Shown here: piece by piece, positions 1,886 to 35,999 of the stretch
Numbering within the stretch: position 1 is the stretch's first letter
Layout of the letters: each line of letters starts with the position of its first letter
Origin: Acidimicrobiaceae bacterium
Lineage (GTDB): Bacteria; Actinomycetota; Acidimicrobiia; Acidimicrobiales; RAAP-2
Length of the DNA: 64,000 nt
Assembly (NCBI GenBank): GCA_003138895.1
Contig: PLHJ01000006.1
Span: 62,001 to 126,000 of the forward strand
Direction of reading: 5' to 3'
Made by a program: the position numbers and the translations under genes
The notes under the pieces: generated by a model
The model's input: the letters and a program-made list of their open reading frames with translations, nothing else
Told to the model about the DNA's origin: nothing
Database searches by the model: none

Positions 1886-2540
1886 TTCGTTCGAAGGAAC
1901 GAAGCGCTCCCCAGCGACCTAATTTTCCTGCGTTGTGTCCGTGATCGGCCCCGCGCAGCATTCGGTGGTCACCTCGAGAATTGCCGTACGCAAAAATTTC
2001 GGGTACTTGGTCGTAGTGCTGCTCATCAATCCATTCGTGCAGGCGTCGAAGTTTCTCTTCACCTCGACAATTTTGTCCGAGGTAACCGCCCGTGAGATTA
2101 CCGAGTGGATCCACCGCGAGTCGTGTCGCGACAGAACCGTGCGCGTGCAGGATGTTCGCTACCTCGTCGACGTACAGCGTCGGTGACGCCGACACAATGA
2201 CGACGTGGTGGCCTTGACGCAAGTGATCTTCTAGTTTGCTAATTGTTGAGCTTCGTCCATGCAACGCCAAGTGCTGTGTGGCAAACGAAGCAGAAGTCGC
2301 GGCGACGTCTTTCATGGGACGTCCTCGCAGTAACGAAGTGAACAGCGACTCCTTCACGCGGTCGGCGGCGTCGCCGCTCGCGAGTGCGCCGTAGGCGAGG
2401 GGAGCACTTCGACGAAGGGCGGCGCGGTAGACGGCGGGCGTTCCCGCAACGCGACAGAGCCAAGGAAAGACACTGCCACCATCGGTCAACGTGCCGTCGA
2501 GATCGAACGCCGCAACAACCGGTCGTGACGAAGATTGCAT
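1878..2540 (-). CDS. HAD-superfamily phosphatase, subfamily IB (SerB-like)
   Basis: Predicted cytoplasmic phosphomonoesterase of 220 residues. The four HAD motifs are visible: the nucleophile motif DLDGT (D13 and D15), motif II in VIVSASP, a motif III lysine in GEEKLRRL, and the acidic motif IV in AYGNSRGDHRML. The helical cap between motifs I and II fits the IB group, which includes phosphoserine phosphatase and similar small-molecule phosphatases. No serine-pathway gene is nearby, so the substrate is open. The gene converges on the exporter ATPase and diverges from the peroxiredoxin gene. Confidence 0.88.
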   Translation of the reverse strand: MQSSSRPVVAAFDLDGTLTDGGSVFPWLCRVAGTPAVYRAALRRSAPLAYGALASGDAADRVKESLFTSLLRGRPMKDVAATSASFATQHLALHGRSSTISKLEDHLRQGHHVVIVSASPTLYVDEVANILHAHGSVATRLAVDPLGNLTGGYLGQNCRGEEKLRRLHEWIDEQHYDQVPEIFAYGNSRGDHRMLRGADHGHNAGKLGRWGALRSFERIS

Positions 2541-2602
2541 TCGTGCAGTCTCCCAGCCCTCGTTGCAACGGAAATCTAATTATCTACAACTCCAGTAGAA
2601 AT

Positions 2603-2632
2603 TTGTGACATTGTGCGCGACGCTGCTAAGGT
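2603..2632 (+). promoter_or_regulatory. possible promoter of the peroxiredoxin gene
   Basis: TTGTGA (2603-2608) and TAAGGT (2627-2632) lie 18 bp apart, about 57 bp before the peroxiredoxin start. This is a fair match to a housekeeping -35/-10 pair in the divergent intergenic region, but it is assigned by eye only. Confidence 0.3.
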
Positions 2633-2688
2633 AACCACTGCGTTGAACCACGATGGTTCAGTGCATTTGTTCTACGAAGGAGCACATA

Positions 2689-3324
2689 ATGGCGATTCGT
2701 CTTGGAGACATGGCCCCCGATTTTGATGCAGAAACCACCGATGGATCTATCAATTTCTATGACTACCTCGGTGACAGTTGGGGCGTTCTCTTTTCGCACC
2801 CGAAGGACTTCACGCCGGTGTGCACGACGGAGTTGGGCGGCTTCGCCGCACGTAAGGCTGACTTTGACAAGCGCAACGCCAAGATCATTGGTCTAAGCGT
2901 TGACTCGGTCGCCTCGCACAAGGACTGGCAGAACGACATCAAGGAAACGCAGGGCACCGCTCTTAACTTTCCGTTGATTGCCGACGAGGACCACCACGTG
3001 GCCGACCTTTACGACATGATTCACCCAAACGCGAATGACACGCTGACTGTTCGAAGTGTCTTCATCATTGGCCCTGACAAGAAGGTCAAGTTGACGCTGA
3101 CGTACCCGGCCTCAACGGGACGAAACATTGAGGAGATTCTTCGTGTCCTTGATTCATTGCAGCTCACGGCGAATTACCAAGTAGCGACGCCCGTTAATTG
3201 GAAGGACGGCGACGACGTCATCATCACGACCGCCGTTTCTGACGAAGACGCAAAGACGAAGTTCCCTAAGGGCTTTAAGAAGCTGAAGGATTACTTGCGC
3301 ATTACGCCGCAACCCAACAAGTAA
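2689..3324 (+). CDS. 1-Cys peroxiredoxin (Prx6 type)
   Basis: Thiol peroxidase that reduces H2O2 and organic peroxides in the cytoplasm. The start is the ATG at 2689, with GAAGGAG 9 bp upstream; this gives 211 residues and the usual N-terminus, whereas the in-frame ATG at 2653 has no good ribosome site. The active-site motif PKDFTPVCTTE holds the peroxidatic cysteine C45 and the conserved threonine T42. No other cysteine occurs in the protein, so it cannot form an intramolecular disulfide and belongs with 1-Cys enzymes. The long C-terminal region with PVNWKDGDDVI is characteristic of the Prx6 group. A strong terminator follows. Confidence 0.95.
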   Translation: MAIRLGDMAPDFDAETTDGSINFYDYLGDSWGVLFSHPKDFTPVCTTELGGFAARKADFDKRNAKIIGLSVDSVASHKDWQNDIKETQGTALNFPLIADEDHHVADLYDMIHPNANDTLTVRSVFIIGPDKKVKLTLTYPASTGRNIEEILRVLDSLQLTANYQVATPVNWKDGDDVIITTAVSDEDAKTKFPKGFKKLKDYLRITPQPNK

Positions 3325-3341
3325 TCAACCAAGTCATAACG

Positions 3342-3380
3342 CAACGAGGTCGGTCCTTTGGGTCCGACCTCGTTGTTGTT
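3342..3380 (+). terminator. rho-independent terminator after the peroxiredoxin gene
   Basis: A perfect 12-bp stem (3342-3353 with 3364-3375) carries a short loop that can close further through CC/GG pairs. It is followed by a T-rich GTTGTT tract. It sits 17 bp after the peroxiredoxin stop codon and before the Shine-Dalgarno site of the next gene. Confidence 0.85.
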
Positions 3381-3422
3381 GGCCACCATTAGGTTGGCTC
3401 TTCAATACCTAAGGAGCATTTT

Positions 3423-4262
3423 GTGAGTACACCGACAACCACTTTCACGTACGCGGGCCAAACCGTTCGGCGTCTAGGTTTCGGCGCGATGCGAATCACT
3501 GGCAAGGGCGTCTGGGGCTACCCGAGCGACCAAGAAAATGCTCGGGCCGTACTTCGTCGTGCAGTGGACTTGGGAATTGACTTCATCGACACGGCTGATT
3601 CCTACGGACCGTACGTTTCTGAAGAGCTGATCTTCGAAGCGCTTCACCCCTACAACGATGTGCGCGTAGCGACGAAAGCCGGACTACTGCGGATGGGACC
3701 TGACGTCTGGTCGCCGTGCGGTCTGCCGGCGTACTTGCGCCAGGAATGCGAAATGTCTCTTCGTCGCCTCGGTGTTGACTCGCTTGATTTATTCCAGTTG
3801 CACCGCATTGATCCCGCCGTTAATCCGGACGATCAGTTCGGGCTACTAAAGGAACTGCTGGACGAAGGAAAAGTAAAAGCCGTTGGCCTCTCCGAAGTCG
3901 CCGTGAGCGACATCAAAGCTGCACAAAAAGTGCTGCCAATTAGCACGGTGCAAAACATGTTCAACTTGACTCAGCGAAAGAGCGAAGACGTGCTCGACTA
4001 CTGCGAGGAACAATCTATTGGCTTTATTCCTTGGTATCCGGTGGCTTCGGGAGAACTCACTCGACCCGGAGGAAAACTCAGCCACTTAGTAACCGCGACG
4101 GGTTGCACCGCCGCCCAACTTTCGCTGGCATGGTTGCTTCGACGTTCACCTGTGGTGATGCCAATTCCGGGCACGTCAAGCCTCGAACACCTAGAAGAGA
4201 ACTGCGCCAGTTCCGGTATTGACTTGAGCGACGAAACCTACGAGGCGCTGACGTCGCTCTAG
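3423..4262 (+). CDS. aldo/keto reductase
   Basis: NAD(P)H-dependent oxidoreductase with a TIM-barrel fold, 279 residues. The start is GTG at 3423 behind AAGGAG. The catalytic tetrad is visible as D56 and Y61 in [10 protein letters not shown]85 in ATKAGL, and a histidine in FQLHRID. The late stretch MPIPGTSS is the cofactor-phosphate region of this family. It stands alone after a terminator and ends 2 nt from the convergent acyl-CoA synthetase gene. The substrate cannot be assigned. Confidence 0.93.
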
Positions 4263-4264
4263 GG

Positions 4265-6016
4265 CTAGTTACTCTGGGCGAGAAGTTCTTCTCGTAACTG
4301 TCGTTTTAGAACCTTGCCCTGAGGATTGCGGGGCAATGGTGTCGAGCGGAAGAATATTTTCGTTGGCACTGAAAACTTGGCGAGTCGGATGGCCACGTGG
4401 CGCATCAGTTCTTCCGCTTCGACAACCCGGCCTGGTCGAAGTACGACGACGGCGGTCACTTCTTCTCCCAATGTGGGGTGGGGGATACCAACGACTGCGC
4501 AGTCAGCGACGTCCGGGTGTTCAAAAATGACGCCCTCTACTTCAACGGAGTAGACGTTTTCACCTCCGCGAATGATCATGTCCTTCGCGCGGTCGACAAT
4601 GTGGATGAAGCCATCTTCGTCAATGCGACCGACGTCACCCGAGCGCAACCATCCTCGAGTGAAGGCCTTTCGGGTCTCTTCAGGTTTGTTCCAGTAACCA
4701 GCTACGACGTTGGGTCCCTTGATCCACAATTCGCCAATGACGTCGGGACCCGTCGGTAAATCGGAAGCGGGTTCATCCCCCTCGTAGTCCTCAGGAACAA
4801 TGACCACGTCACAAACGGGTATCGCTGGTCCGCAGCTCGTGGGCTTGGCGTCGTAGTCGGGACCAGAAATGAGGGCAACGGCCGCGGACGTTTCAGTGAG
4901 ACCGTAGCCATTGCCGGGCGAACCGACTGGAAACGCATTACGGATTCTCTTGACCAGTTCGGGTGGTGATGGAGCTCCACCGTAGGAAACGCTTCGAACG
5001 CTCGAGGTGTCGTACTTGTCAAAATCGGGGTGATCAATAATCTGCATCGCGATCGTGGGGACGCCACCGAAGTTCGTGATTTTTTCGTCCTGAATAAGTT
5101 GCAGGGCTTGGCCCGGATCAAAGTGGTGCGTCATAACGAGCTTGCCACCGGCCGCCGTGTTCACGGACATCACCGCGAGACAACCAGTCGCGTGAAAGAG
5201 GGGAATGTTGAGAAGAAAACCATTTTGCACGGGCGCTTCGTCACTCGTGTCGGGTCCAAAACGGATGTTCGCACGTTGTCCCACAAAGAAGAGATTCATT
5301 AAATTCGTCACTGCGTTTCGGTGTGTTCCGACGGCACCCTTAGGCTTTCCAGTTGTTCCGGACGTGTAAAACATCGTCGCAGGATCTTCGGGGCTTATCT
5401 CAATGGCGGGGGGAACGGCGTCGGAGGCCACTGGTCCAATGAAGTCGTAGAAGTGTTCGACGCGAACCTTGGACGACGTGTCGAGTGATGGAGCGTGCCC
5501 TTTTTTCTCGGTGAGGACGAGCAGTAAACGAAGATCGGGCAGTTCATCCAATTGATTCTTAATTCGCTCGTAACGCTCTTCATCGACAATGGCAACGGAG
5601 GACCCCGAATCACTGAGTCCGTAAATCAACTCGTCAGTTGTCCACCAGGCGTTTAGCGGTACACAAATGGCACCCGCGACGATGGCTCCCCAAAAGGAGA
5701 CCACCCACTCGGGCAGATTTCGCGACGCGACCGTTACTCGATCACCTTTTTCGACGCCAAACTCACGCAAGCGAAGTGCGAGCGTGGACGCTAAGCGGTA
5801 GTGCTCGTCGAAGGTCAAACGAGTGTCTTCGTAGACGAGAAAGTCTTTTGGCGCATGATTGAGCGAGAGGTCAAAGACCGTGCGCAAGGATCCCGGGGCC
5901 AATTTCCAAACTCGATATGAAATATCGTTGATGACCGTATTTTCAATTTCGAACATTTGACCGGGTGCGGTCATCTGGGCGTCGGCCTCTTCCATGGAGA
6001 GTGTGGCTTGCTTCAT
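4265..6016 (-). CDS. acyl-CoA synthetase (AMP-forming)
   Basis: Activates a carboxylic acid, probably a medium- or long-chain fatty acid, to its CoA thioester through an acyl-adenylate; 583 residues. Visible motifs are the P-loop YTSGTTGKPKG, the adenine-site motif YGLTETSA, the hinge and ribose motif GWLRSGDVGRIDEDGF followed by DRAKDMIIRGGENVYS, and the catalytic lysine in NPQGKVLKR near the C-terminus. It lies 10 bp downstream of orn on the same strand, so the two are probably co-transcribed. Chain-length preference is not readable from sequence. Confidence 0.93.
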   Translation of the reverse strand: MKQATLSMEEADAQMTAPGQMFEIENTVINDISYRVWKLAPGSLRTVFDLSLNHAPKDFLVYEDTRLTFDEHYRLASTLALRLREFGVEKGDRVTVASRNLPEWVVSFWGAIVAGAICVPLNAWWTTDELIYGLSDSGSSVAIVDEERYERIKNQLDELPDLRLLLVLTEKKGHAPSLDTSSKVRVEHFYDFIGPVASDAVPPAIEISPEDPATMFYTSGTTGKPKGAVGTHRNAVTNLMNLFFVGQRANIRFGPDTSDEAPVQNGFLLNIPLFHATGCLAVMSVNTAAGGKLVMTHHFDPGQALQLIQDEKITNFGGVPTIAMQIIDHPDFDKYDTSSVRSVSYGGAPSPPELVKRIRNAFPVGSPGNGYGLTETSAAVALISGPDYDAKPTSCGPAIPVCDVVIVPEDYEGDEPASDLPTGPDVIGELWIKGPNVVAGYWNKPEETRKAFTRGWLRSGDVGRIDEDGFIHIVDRAKDMIIRGGENVYSVEVEGVIFEHPDVADCAVVGIPHPTLGEEVTAVVVLRPGRVVEAEELMRHVAIRLAKFSVPTKIFFRSTPLPRNPQGKVLKRQLREELLAQSN

Positions 6017-27994: not shown

Positions 27995-29835
27995 GCATTC
28001 CAATAGCGGGTACGCCTCGATATCGAACGCCGCACCATCGAGATTCGATTGAATCCAACGCCCACTACTTCTCAAAGCGCCTTCGTTATTTTCAAGTTGG
28101 TATTGGCCTCGTTATGTTGCTGCTAGTCGCCAGATTGGTACAGATTCAAGTTCTTGATGGAACGAAGTACTCAAAGATATCCGTTGAACAAGTACGCACG
28201 AACGTTGCGACACCTGCGTTGCGCGGCAGCATTTACGATCGATACGGCCAGATACTGGCAGTATCACAGCCAACCTCGCTGGTCATCGCTGACGATTTTC
28301 AGATCAAGCACCCTGTCGCCGAAGCGGCAGCTCTTGCGCCATTGGTGGGTGAGAGCGCCAAACAACTTCTTCCAAAACTGCAAAAGAACTCTGGCTACGT
28401 CATTTTGACGAATTCTCTCAACATCACCGACGGACACAAACTCGCCTCTCGATACTTGCCGGGAATTGTGGTCCTTAATAGTTCGGAGAGAAAGCAACCC
28501 AACGGAGCGGTGGCGACAGCGCTGCTTGGCGGCGTGAATGCCTCGGGTGCCGGTTCAGCTGGACTCGAATATCAATACCAAAATCTTCTCGCTGGTAAAT
28601 CCGGCCTCGAACGCGTCTTCGCCTCACCGTCGGGCATTTCGCTTCCCGGCTCGCGGACCGTCGTCGTGCGTCCAGCAAAAGCGGGACAAGGCCTCGAATT
28701 GACAATTGACACGCCGCTGCAATTTGTCACGGAGCAAGCGCTCGCACAAGAATTGGTTTCTACAAAAGCCCTCACTGGCGACGCCATCATTATGGATGTA
28801 AAGACTGGTCAAATTCTGGCGAACGCGTCACTCGTGAACACGAATGTGCAAGCTGGCCAACTGGGACCAATTCCATCGTGGGGAACGTCGGTTGGCGTGA
28901 AGGGTGTGCAGCAAACGATTAATGATCTCTCCTTTACAAATACGTACGAGCCAGGATCGGTCTTTAAGGTCGTCACGTTCTCGGCAGCCTTGCAAGCGGG
29001 GGCAATCTCTCCGACGACACCGTTCACCGTTCCGTATTCGCTGCACGTTTCGAATCGAGTTTTCCACGACGCCGAATATCATCCCCTGGAGACATTGAGC
29101 GCGACACAGATCCTCGCGCAATCGTCCAACATCGGCACATACGAAATTGCCAGTCGCGTTGGAGAAGACAATTTGTTGGCGCAGGTGCAGCGTCTTGGAT
29201 TTGGACAGTCAACGGGATTGAACTTTCCAGGCGAAACGCCCGGCCTCTTAGTGAATGCCGCCACGTGGTATCCGAGCGACTTGGCTGCTCTTCCGATTGG
29301 TCAAGTTGACGCGGTCACCCCAATTCAAGTCATCGACGCCTACAACTCGATTGCTAACGACGGTGAGTACGTCGCCCCCAAACTGATCCTTGGGACAGTT
29401 GGCGCGAACGGGTCAATAACGAAAACTGCGGCTAGTCCCAAACACGAAGCTTTCACGCCCACGGTCGCGAATGAACTGAAGAGCATGCTTCAACAAGTGG
29501 TGCTCGTCGGAACAGGCACCAACGCAATTATTCCTGGCTACGAAGTAGCGGGGAAGACGGGAACGGCCCAGATTCCAACGCCGGGACACAGTTCCTATAT
29601 AAAAGGTGCGTACAACGCGAGCTTCGTTGGTTTTGCCCCTGCCCAAAAACCCGTTCTTACGATGCTCGTGGTGATTGAGCGACCCCAAACGACGATTTAC
29701 GGTGGTGCGGTTGCCGCTCCCGTCTTTCAGCGGGTTATGAGCTACGCGTTGCATCACTACGGAATCCCTTCGACCAGTGTCGTGCAAAAACCACTTAAGG
29801 GCACGAGTGCGAGTATCTCATCGGACGTGACGTGA
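27991..29835 (+). CDS. ftsI: peptidoglycan transpeptidase FtsI (class B penicillin-binding protein)
   Basis: Septal DD-transpeptidase, 614 residues from a GTG. An N-terminal membrane helix (about residues 32-50) precedes the dimerisation domain. The catalytic motifs are SVFK with nucleophile S323 and K326, SSN at 378-380, and KTG at 522-524. No PASTA repeats follow. It is the target of beta-lactams and the partner of FtsW, encoded four genes downstream. Junctions with ftsL (GTGA) and murE overlap. Confidence 0.97.
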   Translation: MSIPIAGTPRYRTPHHRDSIESNAHYFSKRLRYFQVGIGLVMLLLVARLVQIQVLDGTKYSKISVEQVRTNVATPALRGSIYDRYGQILAVSQPTSLVIADDFQIKHPVAEAAALAPLVGESAKQLLPKLQKNSGYVILTNSLNITDGHKLASRYLPGIVVLNSSERKQPNGAVATALLGGVNASGAGSAGLEYQYQNLLAGKSGLERVFASPSGISLPGSRTVVVRPAKAGQGLELTIDTPLQFVTEQALAQELVSTKALTGDAIIMDVKTGQILANASLVNTNVQAGQLGPIPSWGTSVGVKGVQQTINDLSFTNTYEPGSVFKVVTFSAALQAGAISPTTPFTVPYSLHVSNRVFHDAEYHPLETLSATQILAQSSNIGTYEIASRVGEDNLLAQVQRLGFGQSTGLNFPGETPGLLVNAATWYPSDLAALPIGQVDAVTPIQVIDAYNSIANDGEYVAPKLILGTVGANGSITKTAASPKHEAFTPTVANELKSMLQQVVLVGTGTNAIIPGYEVAGKTGTAQIPTPGHSSYIKGAYNASFVGFAPAQKPVLTMLVVIERPQTTIYGGAVAAPVFQRVMSYALHHYGIPSTSVVQKPLKGTSASISSDVT

Positions 29836-31232
29836 TGAAACTTGTTGATCTTCTCGGTGATGAATTGCCCGTTAACGCGCACGGAAATATAGAGGTGCGG
29901 CGTGTCGAGGTTGATTCGCGGGCCTGCAAGCCCGACACGCTCTTTTTTGCCATGCCGGGAAGAAACGCCGACGGGGTTCATTTTATTGACGATGCCGTGC
30001 GAAACGGAGCGGTCGCCGTTATCGCAACGTCCACGGTTTCGAGCACCGTACCTTCATTCGTGGTATCGCCTGCTCAGCAACAAGCACTTTTGCAATTGGC
30101 GAGTGCTCGGGTCGCGGGTAATCCCGAAGTCGGCATTCAATTCGTCGGGGTAACAGGTACTAACGGTAAGACGAGTGTGGCGACGTTAATGGGCGAATTG
30201 TGGCAGTCACTGGGAATGAGTGCGGCGACGATTGGCACTCTTACAAGCGCTCGGACCACACCCGCACCACCCGAACTATTTCGCACGTTGGCTTCAATCC
30301 GCAACCAGTGGGGACCCCAGACAACGCGACCGCTGGTGTCCATGGAAGTGTCGAGCCACGCAATTGACCAACATCGCGTTGACGCTTTACGATTTTCGGT
30401 GGCGATTTTCACCAATCTTTCTCAAGATCACCTTGATTATCACGGATCCATGGATTCGTACTACGAAGCCAAACGTGAATTATTCGAATCAAGTCATAGC
30501 GACACAGCTGTCGTATGGGTGGGCGATCACTACGGCGCTCGCTTAGCCGACGAATTGTCAATTCCGGTTACTCGAGTGAACCGCGATGAAGCTGTCAACG
30601 CTCGGCTACATCGTGACGGCACATCATTTGAGTGGAGGGGTCACAATATTGAGTCACCACTCATCGGTGATTTCAATATCGATAACGCGCTGTTGGTGTT
30701 AAGCGCTGGCTCAATTTTGGGTGTGAGCGCTGCTGATATGGCCCTCGCGTTTCGTACGGTGGCTCGTGTGTCCGGTCGCTTTGAGATCGTGAGCGACAAA
30801 GGACCGACGGTCGTGGTCGACTACGCTCATACCCCCGACGCCCTTCGTCGACTCATTACCTCGGCCAGGGAACTCGCTGGAAAAGGTCGAGTCATTGTGG
30901 TGTTTGGCTGCGGGGGAGAGCGTGATCACGCGAAACGTCCGGCGATGGGATCGATTGCCACAAGCCTGGCCGACGTGGTTGTGTTGACGTCGGACAATCC
31001 GAGAAGTGAATCAACGGAGATGATTTTGGATGAAATTGAAGGTGGTTGTGAACCGGAAAGTACGTACTTTCGTGAAAGTGATCGGCGTGAAGCGATCGCC
31101 GTTGCTCTTAACGTGGCGTTACCCCACGACGTTGTACTCGTTGCGGGGAAAGGTCACGAGCGAACTCAAATTATTGGGGACAGCGTGATTGATTTTGATG
31201 ACCGCGTTGTCATACGAGAGTTACTGGCGTGA
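29835..31232 (+). CDS. murE: UDP-MurNAc-tripeptide synthetase MurE (meso-DAP adding)
   Basis: Mur ligase adding the third amino acid of the peptidoglycan stem peptide, 465 residues. ATG 29835 overlaps the ftsI stop by one base (TGATG); a GTG one codon earlier is equivalent. The ATP loop is VTGTNGKTSVATL, the central domain has NLSQDHLDYHGSM, and HTPDALRRL lies in the C-terminal domain. The substrate motif D387-N-P-R390 is the one known to select meso-diaminopimelate over lysine. In most bacteria murF would follow; here mraY follows directly. Confidence 0.97.
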   Translation: MKLVDLLGDELPVNAHGNIEVRRVEVDSRACKPDTLFFAMPGRNADGVHFIDDAVRNGAVAVIATSTVSSTVPSFVVSPAQQQALLQLASARVAGNPEVGIQFVGVTGTNGKTSVATLMGELWQSLGMSAATIGTLTSARTTPAPPELFRTLASIRNQWGPQTTRPLVSMEVSSHAIDQHRVDALRFSVAIFTNLSQDHLDYHGSMDSYYEAKRELFESSHSDTAVVWVGDHYGARLADELSIPVTRVNRDEAVNARLHRDGTSFEWRGHNIESPLIGDFNIDNALLVLSAGSILGVSAADMALAFRTVARVSGRFEIVSDKGPTVVVDYAHTPDALRRLITSARELAGKGRVIVVFGCGGERDHAKRPAMGSIATSLADVVVLTSDNPRSESTEMILDEIEGGCEPESTYFRESDRREAIAVALNVALPHDVVLVAGKGHERTQIIGDSVIDFDDRVVIRELLA

Positions 31233-31241
31233 GGAATTGAC

Positions 31242-32276
31242 ATGTTGAGCTTGATGGAAGCTGGAGGCTGCGGATTCTTAATATCGCTGTTCTTTACGCC
31301 CTTCTACATTCGTTTTCTACGTTCACGATCACTCGGTCAACGAATTCGAGAAGACGGTCCCCAAAGTCACCAATCCAAGGCCGGCACCCCAACCATGGGT
31401 GGTGTCGTAATTTTGGCCTCGGGCGTTATTGGCTATCTCATGGGGCACGTTGGTACGGCGATTACGTTCACTCGAGCCGGCGCTCTGGTGGTGTTAACGA
31501 CATTGGCCGCAGGTTTGTTGGGCTTTGCTGATGACTACGTGGCAATTCGTCACGCTCGAAACCTCGGTCTCAATAAACGCGGCAAGTTTGCCGGTCAACT
31601 CATCATCGCGCTCAGCTTCTCGCTACTCGCGGTGTACTGGGTGCACACGTCGACGCGGTTATCGTTCACTCGACTGACGTTGCCCGGTTGGCAACTGGGA
31701 GTTGTTGGTTGGATACTGCTTTCCGTTTTTGTCCTCGTGGCCACCTCGAACGGTGTAAATCTCACGGACGGACTTGATGGGCTCGCCGCCGGATCGGCCA
31801 CGTTCTGCTTTGCCATTTTGTCCATCATCGGCTACTGGCAGTTTCGTCACTTCACGATTTATCACCTGGGCCCCGCGCTCGATCTCGGATTATTTGCGGT
31901 TGCGCTCGTGGGTGGTTGTCTTGGATTCCTATGGTGGAACGCCGTACCGGCTCAAATAATCATGGGCGATACAGGCGCACTAAGCATTGGTACCGCCCTG
32001 GGCGGACTCTGTCTTCTCATGAACCTTGATTTGTTGCTGGTGGTAATCGGTGGATTGTTCGTATTTGAAACCGCTTCGGTGATTTTGCAAATTATTAGCT
32101 TTCGACTGTTTCACCGGCGAATTTTCCGCATGGCGCCAATCCATCATCATTTTGAACTCAAGGGTTGGCCGGAAGCAACGTTAATCATTCGCTTTTGGAT
32201 CTTGGCTGGACTTCTCGCTGCACTAGGACTGGGAATGTTCTACGGCGACTTCTTAAAGATTTCGGGAGTCGCGTGA
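31242..32276 (+). CDS. mraY: phospho-N-acetylmuramoyl-pentapeptide transferase MraY
   Basis: Membrane enzyme that transfers phospho-MurNAc-pentapeptide to undecaprenyl phosphate, making lipid I; 344 residues and about ten helices. Recognisable motifs are GTPTMGG, LGFADDY with the catalytic aspartates, LTDGLDGLA, MGDTGALSIG and APIHHHFELKGWPE. GAGGAA precedes the ATG. The stop overlaps ftsW by one base. murD, which normally sits between mraY and ftsW, is absent. Confidence 0.98.
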   Translation: MLSLMEAGGCGFLISLFFTPFYIRFLRSRSLGQRIREDGPQSHQSKAGTPTMGGVVILASGVIGYLMGHVGTAITFTRAGALVVLTTLAAGLLGFADDYVAIRHARNLGLNKRGKFAGQLIIALSFSLLAVYWVHTSTRLSFTRLTLPGWQLGVVGWILLSVFVLVATSNGVNLTDGLDGLAAGSATFCFAILSIIGYWQFRHFTIYHLGPALDLGLFAVALVGGCLGFLWWNAVPAQIIMGDTGALSIGTALGGLCLLMNLDLLLVVIGGLFVFETASVILQIISFRLFHRRIFRMAPIHHHFELKGWPEATLIIRFWILAGLLAALGLGMFYGDFLKISGVA

Positions 32277-33514
32277 TGTTGCGACAAAAAGGTGCACGTC
32301 TCGGAACAACGAACTCACTCGAGCGTTCCCTTCTCGTGCTGCTGTTTTTCTTTCTCGTCGCCGGCGTTCTCGCGGTAGGAAGCGCCAGCGCACCTCAGGC
32401 AGCCGCGAGTGGAGGATCGAGCTGGTCGTATCTCGAGCGCGACCTTCTATTCGTGTTGGTTGGTGTTGTGGCCTTCATTTTCATGACGCGAATCACGTCG
32501 GCGTTCCTCGCTAACTTCGCTACTGCTTTCATGGCCCTGTCGCTTGGTCTACTCGTGGTGGTCGAGGCGCTGGGTTCGTCTGCCTCGGGTGGACAACGCT
32601 GGTTGGGTTTTTCGGGTCTTCAGTTTCAACCCTCGGAATTGTTCAAGTTGGCGACGTGCATCTATTTGGCGTACGCGGTGGCTCGAATCGAAAGAAGTGG
32701 TCGCAACTGGCAAGCGATTTTAAAGGCAGCGGTGCCGCCCCTATTGGGGGCGATCATCATTTTTGCCGAGCCCGATATGGGCACGGCGTCGATCATTGTG
32801 CTCGTCACCTTTGCGGTACTGATCGTCGCTGGCCTTCCCGGGCGCACGATACGACTCTTCGCCTTTATGGGAGTTGTTCTCGCGGGAATATTCGCGTTTG
32901 CCGCTCCGTACCGACGTGAGCGCCTGTTGTCGTTTCTGCATCCGACGAGTGATCCAACGGGCGCGGGCTATCAGGTACTTCAGGCCAAGATTGGCTTAGG
33001 CGCGGGTCGCGTCGCGGGACTGGGTTACGGACAAAGTCGCGAAAAGTGGGGCCTCTTGCCCAATCCGCACACGGACTTCATTTTCGCCATCATCGGCGAA
33101 GAACTGGGTTTCATTGGTGCGGTCTTCGTCATTGCTCTTTTTGCGTGGTTGCTAATTCTGGCGTGCAAAATTGCACTTCGTGCACCCGATCGAGAGTCGC
33201 AGCTTCTGGCCGCGGGCATCACGTTCTGGCTCGGTTTTGAGGCAGTCATCAACATTGCGTCCGTGGTGGGTCTGTGGCCGGTCACGGGCATTCCCTTACC
33301 GTTTTTTTCCTACGGCGGTACATCACTCATCATTGACTTGATGGCGCTTGGTCTGCTCGTCAACGTGGCTCGCCGCATCAAACCCCCGCGACCCTTTGAG
33401 GCGCAAGTACCTTCTGTTCGTGCCCATCAACGTCGTCCGACGCGCCGGCGCGAACACGTCAGTCCTCGTCGCGAGATGAGACAACCGGTACGTGAGACCG
33501 TTTCGAGGCATTAG
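32276..33514 (+). CDS. ftsW: peptidoglycan glycosyltransferase FtsW (SEDS family)
   Basis: Polytopic membrane polymerase of lipid II in septal wall synthesis, working with FtsI; 412 residues from ATG 32276. SEDS signatures include GGQRWLGFSGLQFQPSELFK, the loop EPDMGTASI, and NPHTDFIFAIIGEELG with the catalytic acidic residue region, then PFFSYGGTSL near the end. A basic tail of about 50 residues follows the last helix. The longer open frame to 32165 reads antisense to nothing useful and lies within mraY in another frame. Confidence 0.96.
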   Translation: MLRQKGARLGTTNSLERSLLVLLFFFLVAGVLAVGSASAPQAAASGGSSWSYLERDLLFVLVGVVAFIFMTRITSAFLANFATAFMALSLGLLVVVEALGSSASGGQRWLGFSGLQFQPSELFKLATCIYLAYAVARIERSGRNWQAILKAAVPPLLGAIIIFAEPDMGTASIIVLVTFAVLIVAGLPGRTIRLFAFMGVVLAGIFAFAAPYRRERLLSFLHPTSDPTGAGYQVLQAKIGLGAGRVAGLGYGQSREKWGLLPNPHTDFIFAIIGEELGFIGAVFVIALFAWLLILACKIALRAPDRESQLLAAGITFWLGFEAVINIASVVGLWPVTGIPLPFFSYGGTSLIIDLMALGLLVNVARRIKPPRPFEAQVPSVRAHQRRPTRRREHVSPRREMRQPVRETVSRH

Positions 33515-34629
33515 TGGCTCGGCCCATTGTTATCACCGGCGGTGGCACCGGGGGCCATATTTTCCCGATGGAAGCAATTGCTGAAGCACTCGTCGCCCTC
33601 GACTGGCCGAGTGAGGCTATCCGTTACGTCGGTAGTCGACGAGGTCAAGAGCGCCGACTACTTGGTGGCGACGCAGTCGCGTTGACGCTGCTTCCCGGCC
33701 GAGGCATTCGTCGTTCGTTGAAGCCTTCGGCAGTTGTTCAAAACATTGGCGCCGTCGCCGGACTCGCAGTGGCCATCGTGCAATCCCTGTATTTGGTCGC
33801 ACGATGGCGACCACGTGCTGTTGTCTCGGTGGGCGGATACGCAGCATTTCCGTTTGCACTCGTCAGTGCGTTAACGAATCGACGTCTCGTACTGGTGGAA
33901 TTCGACGCTGTAGCGACCGGTGTCCATCGCGTTCTCGCTCGATTCGCGACGCGGACGTGCGTGGCGTTTTCGAGTACCGAGCATCGAGCAGTGTTAACGG
34001 GAGCTCCCGTTCGTGCGTCCATTGCACAACTTGACCGTGACCCAACTGCTCGTTCTCGTGCGAAAAGCGCGCAACATCCGCCGATTGATCAAGAGCGTTT
34101 CGTCGTTGTGGTGATGACTGGTTCGCTCGGAGCGGGATCGGTCAACGCCGCAGTTTCAGAACTTGCCAATCTCTGGTCACAACGCACCGACCTGTGTGTC
34201 ATCCACGTAAGTGGCGTACGTGACTACGAAATCACCCTGGCTAGGTCGCCACGAACCAATGGTTTGGATTACCGAATTGTTGAGTTTGCCGACATGAAGG
34301 AACTTTGGTCGCTCGCTGACGTTGCGCTGTGTCGAGCGGGGGCGACTACGATTGCCGAACTGACATTGCTCGGCATTGCGAGTGTGCTCGTGCCCCTGCC
34401 GGGAGCTCCGGGTGATCACCAACGCTTAAACGCTGAGCGCCTCGTCGATCGTGACGCCGCGGTGATGTTGCTGGACCGCGAGTGCAACGCCGAATCTGTG
34501 GCGAAAGCCCTCGACGAATTACTAAAGGATGATCGTTGCACTGCGGTCGGCGCGAACGCGCGCGCGCTCGGTCATCCCCACGCTGCGCAGGCAATTGCCC
34601 AAGTGGTGCTTTCTGAGGTACGAGGGTGA
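33514..34629 (+). CDS. murG: lipid II synthase MurG (GT28 glycosyltransferase)
   Basis: Peripheral membrane enzyme adding GlcNAc to lipid I, 371 residues from a GTG overlapping the ftsW stop by one base. The N-terminal glycine loop GGGTGGHIFP, the second loop TGSLGAGSVN, CRAGATTIAELTLLG and PLPGAPGDHQRLNAERL identify it. The motif usually written HEQNxxxGxxN reads VEFDAVATGVHR here, so conserved glutamine and asparagine positions are changed. The rest is complete, so activity is likely. Confidence 0.93.
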   Translation: MARPIVITGGGTGGHIFPMEAIAEALVALDWPSEAIRYVGSRRGQERRLLGGDAVALTLLPGRGIRRSLKPSAVVQNIGAVAGLAVAIVQSLYLVARWRPRAVVSVGGYAAFPFALVSALTNRRLVLVEFDAVATGVHRVLARFATRTCVAFSSTEHRAVLTGAPVRASIAQLDRDPTARSRAKSAQHPPIDQERFVVVVMTGSLGAGSVNAAVSELANLWSQRTDLCVIHVSGVRDYEITLARSPRTNGLDYRIVEFADMKELWSLADVALCRAGATTIAELTLLGIASVLVPLPGAPGDHQRLNAERLVDRDAAVMLLDRECNAESVAKALDELLKDDRCTAVGANARALGHPHAAQAIAQVVLSEVRG

Positions 34630-35999
34630 GCACACTTTTTCTTCCCGGCTCACGCGTTCACGTTATTGGTTGTGGTGGCGCCGGCATGAGTGGGCTGGCG
34701 AGGTTTTTTCTCGAACGGGGTTGTGTGGTGAGCGGATCAGACGCCGCGGCGAGTGCGGTGACGAGGGCCCTCGAAGATGCCGGTGTGCGTGTCGTCATTG
34801 GTCACGACGCGCGACACGTCGTGGGCGCCGACGTGGTCATTGCGTCACCTGCCGTTGGAATTGACAATGTCGAACGTGTCGCCGCGGTGGCCCTGGGCAT
34901 ACCGTTCGTTGATCGCGCGCACGTTTTGGCCCAACTCGCGAGTGAAATGAACTGCGTGGGCCTTACAGGAACGCACGGTAAAACCACGGCGACGTCAATG
35001 ATGGCGTGCGTGCTTTCGAGCGCCCAACGCCAACCGTCGTGGTTGCTCGGAGCGCCAATCGCCGGACTCGGCGAGAACGGACACCGGGGTGACGGGGACA
35101 CGCTCGTATTGGAAGTGGACGAAAGCTTTGGGTCGTTTTCGTTGCTCACGCCCTCGTCGCTCGGCGTTCTCAATATCGAACCTGATCACCTTGACTTTTA
35201 TGGAACGGTCGATCGTTTGGAGTCAGGCTTTGCTGAACTCATGGAGCGAACACTCGGCGACGTCGTGGTGTGGTTCGACGACGTGGGTGTGGTCCGAACC
35301 CTCGAGTCAGTCTCTCGCGCTGTTCACACCGTTGGTCGAAGCGGGGCGGCAGATTTCGTCGTCAGTGATGAAGCGTTCACGCGTTCGAGTACCCATTTCA
35401 CGCTCACCTGGGATGGAGGAAGCGTCAATGTGGAACTGAACGTTCCGGGTGCTCTCAACGTCGCCAACGGTGCCCTCGTCGCCGCGCTCGCGCTGCGAAT
35501 TGGCGTTGATCCTTCGGTCGTCGTTCATGGTCTCTCCGCCTTTCGGGGCGCGCCTCGACGTTTTGAGCGCATGGGGCAATGGCGCAACATTGACGTGATT
35601 GATGACTACGCACACTTACCGACGGAAGTTTCAGCGACCATTGGCGCGGCACGAACTCTCGGATACGAACACATCACTGCCGTATTCGAACCCCACCGCG
35701 TCACTCGAACAACGCATCTTGGTCAACAATTCGAACACGCCTTTGATGGTGTGGACTCGCTGATTGTGACGGACATCTACACGGCGGGCGAAGAAAACCC
35801 CGACGCCATCACGGGCAACGTCATTGTCAACACCGTACGCGGTGCGTCGACTCGCGTTCAGTGCTACTACGAACCCACGTTGGGCAACGTTGTTCAGCGT
35901 CTTAACAATCTCGTGCACACCACGGACCTCATACTCGTCATGGGCGCCGGCGGTGTCTTTCAGTTGGCGCAAAAGCTGGTCGAGGGGTATTCGCCATGA
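34626..35999 (+). CDS. murC: UDP-MurNAc-L-alanine ligase MurC
   Basis: Adds L-alanine to UDP-MurNAc; 457 residues, GTG start overlapping murG by 4 nt. The UDP-binding Rossmann motif is VIGCGGAGMSGLA, the ATP loop is LTGTHGKTTATSMM, EVDESFGSF and LNIEPDHLDFYG lie in the central domain, and FEPHRVTRT in the C-terminal domain. The common DDYAHHPTE reads DDYAHLPTE and the usual GAGD reads GAGG. The N-terminal and ATP motifs are MurC-like and not MurD-like. Confidence 0.95.
   Translation: MSTLFLPGSRVHVIGCGGAGMSGLARFFLERGCVVSGSDAAASAVTRALEDAGVRVVIGHDARHVVGADVVIASPAVGIDNVERVAAVALGIPFVDRAHVLAQLASEMNCVGLTGTHGKTTATSMMACVLSSAQRQPSWLLGAPIAGLGENGHRGDGDTLVLEVDESFGSFSLLTPSSLGVLNIEPDHLDFYGTVDRLESGFAELMERTLGDVVVWFDDVGVVRTLESVSRAVHTVGRSGAADFVVSDEAFTRSSTHFTLTWDGGSVNVELNVPGALNVANGALVAALALRIGVDPSVVVHGLSAFRGAPRRFERMGQWRNIDVIDDYAHLPTEVSATIGAARTLGYEHITAVFEPHRVTRTTHLGQQFEHAFDGVDSLIVTDIYTAGEENPDAITGNVIVNTVRGASTRVQCYYEPTLGNVVQRLNNLVHTTDLILVMGAGGVFQLAQKLVEGYSP

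Follow-up and report, generated by a model that had tools for sequence, protein, structure and literature searches.

The described systems that come closest to the locus of this study are a Xanthomonas route to D-glutamate (D-Glu), canonical MurF and a Mur ligase that acts on lipid II. MurL of Xanthomonas is an ATP-dependent epimerase, which converts the L-Glu put in by MurD2 to D-Glu (PMC5808125); in X. oryzae the pair MurD2/MurL corresponds to XOO_1320/XOO_1319 (PMC8788868). In MurC to MurF, the N-terminal domain holds the uridine diphosphate (UDP) part of the substrate, whereas MurT of the lipid II amidase MurT/GatD lacks this domain, which, according to the MurT authors, would clash with the membrane (PMC6113224). 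According to a recent survey, three such domains occur, within the superfamily, only in the muramyl ligases, of which four are bacterial and four archaeal (PMC11915815). Here, we analyse the division and cell wall (dcw) gene cluster of an Acidimicrobiaceae bacterium (GCA_003138895.1), located in a stretch of 64,000 nucleotides of contig PLHJ01000006.1, which is called the window in the following. The places of murD and murF in this cluster are empty. Very probably, both ligases are replaced by genes elsewhere in the genome: MurD by a cassette of MurD2 and MurL, and MurF by a variant with a membrane domain, TM-MurF, encoded beside Ddl.

The two empty places and their surroundings in the window are as follows:
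29835..31232, plus strand: murE (ATG start; upstream GTG at 29832; TIGR01085 438 bits, above cut-off)
31233..31241, plus strand: murE-mraY junction of 9 bases, where E. coli has murF
31242..32276, plus strand: mraY (ATG at 31242, TGA at 32274-32276; TIGR00445 315 bits, above cut-off)
32276..32276, plus strand: mraY-ftsW overlap of one base, where E. coli has murD
32276..33514, plus strand: ftsW (ATG at 32276; TIGR02614 343 bits, above cut-off)
34626..35999, plus strand: murC (NCBIfam-confirmed)

The identities of MurE, MraY, FtsW and MurC were confirmed with NCBIfam models, while the remaining dcw gene names in the window were assigned by reading translations. The equivalent stretch of E. coli K-12 reads murE-murF-mraY-murD-ftsW. 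A preceding sequence-only reading of this DNA had pointed out the 9-bp gap, the one-base overlap and the absence of murF and murD without any remnant, and all three statements hold. The last base of the mraY stop codon TGA is at the same time the first base of the ftsW ATG (an alternative ftsW start is the GTG at 32273), and gap and overlap together are too tight to leave space for a remnant of either gene.

Relatives were studied in a class sample of 296 genomes from 148 genera, with 14 genomes as controls. That the tight junctions do not reflect an assembly gap, as had been claimed, is confirmed by the other MurL-encoding genomes with a fetched dcw stretch: in 17 out of 17, mraY is directly followed by ftsW. 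An assembly artefact was therefore rejected; with the window included, all 18 MurL genomes for which the dcw stretch was read show the junction without murD. murE is directly followed by mraY in 14 of the 17; the exceptions are two genomes which keep murF in the dcw cluster (G068 and G166) and one stretch that begins at mraY (G277). The window's dcw order is likewise present in G267, in which no MurL was found. A direct murE-mraY junction also occurs in genomes with a canonical MurF: within the window's taxonomic order, murE directly precedes mraY in 14 of 14 judgeable loci (the fifteenth, again G277, begins at mraY), and in the rest of the class murF lies inside the dcw cluster in all seven canonical-MurF loci fetched. 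The empty murF place by itself is ordinary and common in this order. Rearrangement alone does not describe the empty place of murD, which accompanies a changed D-Glu pathway in which MurI is absent and murL-murD2 is present.

The window belongs to contig C11; the genome measures 1.74 Mb, is represented by 26 contigs and is 86% complete. The search of the whole genome for Mur ligases, as proposed earlier, returned six Mur-ligase middle domains. Four belong to murE, murC, FolC and MurT. The other two are located outside the dcw cluster and outside the window: a MurD-like protein of 459 residues (contig C17, loci L008/L118) and a MurF-like protein with adjacent ddl (contig C21, locus L002). There is a single candidate each for MurD and MurF, and it is right to call both genes absent from the cluster but wrong to extend this to the genome. 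The sequence-only reading had concluded that the ligases are encoded elsewhere or that the pathway is altered, which stands in part; both alternatives apply.

The MurF-like protein, TM-MurF, aligns to the MurF model only from position 63 on, with 194-195 bits against the curated cut-off of 288.6. In the intact copies of relatives, the UDP-binding N-domain is absent, and a conserved membrane domain of approximately 170 residues with five hydrophobic helices precedes the central domain in its place. In four relatives scanned, no Pfam match above noise covers the approximately 180 to 220 residues before the central domain. The sequence set consists of 80 named loci kept of 384 found; 72 have complete frames, and 39 sequences entered the alignments A2 and A3. 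Invariant in these 39 are, among others, Q29 R30 E31 H32 Y33, F41 A42, R44 W45, G91, T99, R101, D142 and E152. In the TM-MurF of locus L153, loops 1, 3 and 5 carry 6, 7 and 5 Lys/Arg residues, loops 2 and 4 only 1 and 0. According to the positive-inside rule, loops rich in Lys and Arg are cytoplasmic, so that the ligase domains and the conserved motifs QREHY and RGRTSxLxWTxR are probably cytoplasmic.

An AlphaFold2 model of TM-MurF (predicted local distance difference test, pLDDT, 93.9; predicted template modelling score 0.90) has the MurF structure 3zl8 as its best PDB match (Z 30.2, root-mean-square deviation 5.2, with an alignment of 361 residues that starts at model residue 96). The membrane domain modelled alone reaches pLDDT 95.9; its fold has no Foldseek match under E 1.3, and the best Z by VIA is 3.9, which marks the fold neither as new nor as known. 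The TM-MurFs form one clade within MurF (Shimodaira-Hasegawa-like approximate likelihood ratio test 99). Compared with 19 canonical MurFs and that of E. coli, whose numbering is used, they keep the P-loop, E158, H188, K202, R316, D331, N334, N336 and P337. H372 is changed to Asn, and K432, S434 and R435 of the KGSR motif are changed to Glu, Asp and Leu.

TM-MurF thus shares with canonical MurF (TIGR01143) the central and C-terminal domains, the catalytic residues, the clade and a neighbouring ddl, and differs in the missing UDP-binding N-domain, the membrane domain, and the KGSR and H372 changes. With MurT it has in common that it is a Mur ligase without the UDP-binding N-domain. For MurT, however, no membrane domain is reported in the part of PMC6113224 examined, its partner is GatD, and the window genome encodes a MurT of its own with adjacent GatD (locus L006). 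TM-MurF matches MurF models rather than MurT models, and has ddl beside it instead of gatD. The relocated MurF is a membrane-integrated variant, and no membrane MurF is described in the open-access literature searched.

The membrane-domain profile (A1) matches 131 of the 296 class genomes, belonging to 50 of the 148 genera. Canonical MurF, defined at E 1e-72 with all matches above the curated cut-off, occurs in 154 genomes, none of which has TM-MurF. Exactly one of the two forms is present in 285 genomes and neither in 11; the eight of these with a completeness value are 77-93% complete. The Fisher tests for this mutual exclusion and for the one reported below ignore kinship. Weak additional MurF matches were rejected as candidates: those in G244, G059, G034, G295 and G184 are murE beside mraY, and those in G014 and G261 have a MurE model as their best match. 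The extra match in G258 is under the cut-off and belongs to a MurF that lacks the membrane domain. With the extra matches explained, the exclusion is unbroken. In G258 itself (C1:152460-153680; L259 498-1820), two MurF genes without membrane domain were observed, the second of them, under the cut-off, beside ddl. The MurE-type ligases of G014 (L257 441-2018) and G261 (L258 772-2355) lie away from the dcw cluster; G261 also has murE beside mraY, and both ligases are probably a second MurE. In genus g68, TM-MurF was seen in G009 and canonical MurF in G166 and G080; G166 shows 6% contamination, and a mixed bin is possible.

TM-MurF is located between an alpha/beta-hydrolase gene and ddl. Among 19 loci fetched, the hydrolase gene was found in all and ddl in 18. 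For the 80 named loci, the counts are 63 with both neighbours, eight with the hydrolase only, five with ddl only and four with neither. The hydrolase gene was seen directly upstream of TM-MurF in 27 out of 27 loci (L078-L096 and L249-L256) from two classes. Acidimicrobiia or other Actinomycetota, including Microthrix, account for 79 of the 80 named loci, and one is labelled as Acidobacteriota. In the phylum sample outside the class, 16 of 296 genomes match the TM-MurF profile, 15 of them weakly (family f56). Eight of these 16 were fetched and show hydrolase, TM-MurF and ddl in the same order, with ddl up to approximately 1.7 kb away. Seven f56 loci carry the variant motif FQLEGY, in which Q, E and Y persist.

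The domain swap is read directly from the sequences, as are the genes and their places, the residue changes and the two mutual exclusions. For the activity of TM-MurF we infer, from homology and from the absence of another candidate, that it would finish the pentapeptide at the membrane by adding D-Ala-D-Ala, with the MurF central and C-terminal domains kept and five predicted membrane helices in place of the UDP-binding N-domain. A MurF with a membrane domain that bears invariant polar loops would most simply work at the membrane. As to its substrate, our tentative first choice is that the addition takes place after lipid transfer: MraY would move UDP-N-acetylmuramic acid (MurNAc)-tripeptide to undecaprenyl phosphate, and TM-MurF would then complete lipid I (or lipid II), with the membrane domain holding the pyrophosphate-lipid via the QxExY and RGRTS loops where other Mur ligases have their UDP-binding domain. 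It is also a serious possibility that TM-MurF still uses the soluble UDP-MurNAc-tripeptide and that its membrane domain docks to MraY or Ddl for channelling. This would agree with the position of ddl beside TM-MurF and with the MraY alignment, in which no column separates the 19 TM-MurF from the 23 canonical rows at the thresholds set, as expected if the substrate of MraY is unchanged. On the other hand, TM-MurF has lost precisely the UDP-binding domain of the other Mur ligases, and MurT, which also lacks it, acts on lipid II (PMC6113224). The MraY alignment speaks somewhat more for channelling, and the loss of the domain more for a lipid substrate; because the N-domain is missing as in MurT, we lean slightly to the lipid-linked substrate.

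The second replacement concerns MurD. The MurD-like protein scores above the MurD cut-off, and the gene that overlaps its start encodes a MurL homologue of nearly full model length. This neighbourhood of murL and a murD-like gene was found in the window genome and in all 31 MurL genomes of the class sample, for 26 of them by coordinates and for the other five (G099, G193, G289, G009 and G277) by locus reading. MurI above the cut-off occurs in 166 of the 296 genomes and never together with MurL. A larger set of 173 strong MurI matches was delimited by eye at E of about 1e-28 or lower, of which 166 are above the curated cut-off. The window genome has no MurI match at all, and a single MurL genome (G141) has a weak one (E 4.4e-7). 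MurL is missing from each of the 14 control genomes. Of 19 genomes sampled from the family of the window, 18 encode MurL, and MurI above the cut-off occurs in none of the 19; the genome that lacks MurL, G267, has neither a murD in the dcw cluster nor any MurD match at E 1e-40, and is tentatively read as an incomplete genome. In 34 out of 34 MurI genomes examined, murD is next after mraY within 328 bases. MurL and TM-MurF are separate traits, as 22 MurL genomes have TM-MurF and nine canonical MurF.

Nine changes of the MurL state are placed on the MraY tree. In 6 of 6 independent pairs on supported branches, this state agrees with the dcw state of murD (sign test p 0.031), which was coded from MurI/MurL membership once loci had been checked. 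The window's family is not kept together on the MurL tree, which is what a cassette moving from lineage to lineage would lead one to expect. The reading by MurL and MurI does not explain the D-Glu source of 92 of the 296 genomes, which have neither MurL nor strong MurI. Many of these 92 are genomes of approximately 1 Mb from family f29, and some f12 and f29 genomes have D-amino-acid-transaminase-like matches of 145-197 bits, under the cut-off of 277. The D-amino-acid transaminase model TIGR01121 is matched above cut-off in none of 54 genomes and below it in 53; of the controls, 12 of 14 match and one is above the cut-off. The match of the window genome, a frame of 308 residues, is taken as a candidate branched-chain transaminase.

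MurD2 and the MurDs of MurI genomes were compared in an unbiased scan of 19 of the 20 fetched MurD2 loci (L133 is incomplete and was left out) against 22 MurDs, taken from the 34 MurI genomes, and that of E. coli, with residues numbered as in E. coli without the start Met. Five columns separate the groups: S116, L177, K319, K348 and C413. All 19 MurD2s have K319L and K348R, while Lys is kept in 23 and 22 of the 23 MurDs, respectively; in addition, A414 is Pro in 17 of 19 MurD2s. According to PMC8788868, K348 to Arg belongs to a pair of positions whose reversal made the Xanthomonas MurD2 a D-Glu enzyme, K319 is a mutation site that let E. coli MurD accept L-Glu, and reversal of A414 to Pro left the specificity of the Xanthomonas enzyme unchanged. 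The locus thus resembles the X. oryzae system in its adjacent murL and murD-like genes, in the lack of MurI and of a D-amino-acid transaminase above the cut-off, in Arg in place of K348 and, in most cases, Pro in place of A414. It differs in taxon, in a MurL well under the Xanthomonadales cut-off, in Asp182, and in that MurL and MurD2 share one frame in one genus. This single frame, apparently a fusion, was observed in two genomes (L136 of G009, 1951-4536, and G166:C54:2059-4509; 861 and 877 residues).

By analogy with Xanthomonas, MurD2 would join L-Glu to UDP-MurNAc-L-Ala, and the adjacently encoded MurL would epimerise this residue to D-Glu with ATP; with epimerisation by MurL, neither a D-Glu pool nor MurI would be needed. 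In the alignment of 19 MurL sequences (A4), the motif GGGxDS is invariant, as are three Cys residues (CxxCxKC). One of the 19 has a weak Pfam match, a single sequence has no PDB match, and the profile finds nothing under E 0.66. The best PDB rows of the profile, at E 0.66-1.4, are no evidence by themselves; six of the eleven are PP-loop ATPases (TtuA, TilS, NAD synthetase), and a relationship to these would be in keeping with the reported adenylation. MurL is not described for Acidimicrobiia in the open-access literature searched, and the known Xanthomonas route would here operate in a group for which no report of it was found.

Several observations weigh against the replacement of both ligases. 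The MurL homologue scores 272-277 bits and fails the cut-off of 700 of NF041275, which is set for Xanthomonadales. In the window genome, the TM-MurF frame is broken at two undetermined bases, with different frames on either side; the membrane-domain profile matches on both sides, and the break is tentatively taken as an assembly flaw because 13 out of 13 sampled congeners carry the domain. D182, the second switch residue (E197 in Xanthomonas), is changed to Glu in only one of 19 MurD2s and kept as Asp in 17; Glu may be a trait particular to the Xanthomonas enzyme. The lack of a MraY column that distinguishes TM-MurF genomes from canonical ones is a further point. Finally, the window genome has an aspartate-racemase-family gene (L007), which could make some D-Glu.

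The last point is the basis of an alternative in which MurD is an ordinary D-Glu enzyme fed by the racemase-like gene, while MurL does something else. We consider this improbable, given that MurL excludes MurI and pairs with MurD2, that K348R and K319L are present, and that L007, rejected as MurI, reaches 159 bits with the amino-acid (aspartate) racemase model and 18 with that for glutamate racemase. An ordinary lineage rearrangement, which the sequence-only reading had named as the outcome if relatives have the genes elsewhere, would find murD and murF canonical and merely moved out of the dcw cluster. For their position, the gene order of relatives bears this out: murF lies outside the dcw cluster across the order even when canonical, and the MurD-like gene is above its cut-off. 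It is very unlikely for their identity, since both proteins are altered: the MurD carries MurD2 residues and has MurL as its partner where MurI is absent, and the MurF has membrane helices in place of its N-domain. That TM-MurF is another ligase, with MurF missing from the assembly or a wall without D-Ala-D-Ala, as the 86% completeness and the match from position 63 on would allow, is hardly credible in view of the complete exclusion over 296 genomes, the neighbouring ddl, the MurF clade and motifs, and the same pattern in congeners of 94-97% completeness.

The gap in the cluster is real, and its murD half would mark a switch to a MurD2/MurL pathway of a kind known from another group. Early peptidoglycan synthesis is regarded as a fixed pathway, in which MurC, MurD, MurE and MurF act in this order on a soluble UDP carrier. 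A membrane-embedded MurF without UDP-binding domain makes it a testable question on which carrier the pentapeptide is finished. The murL-murD2 cassette would add another group to a pathway to which a review assigns few genera and which it considers as a narrow target for antibiotics.

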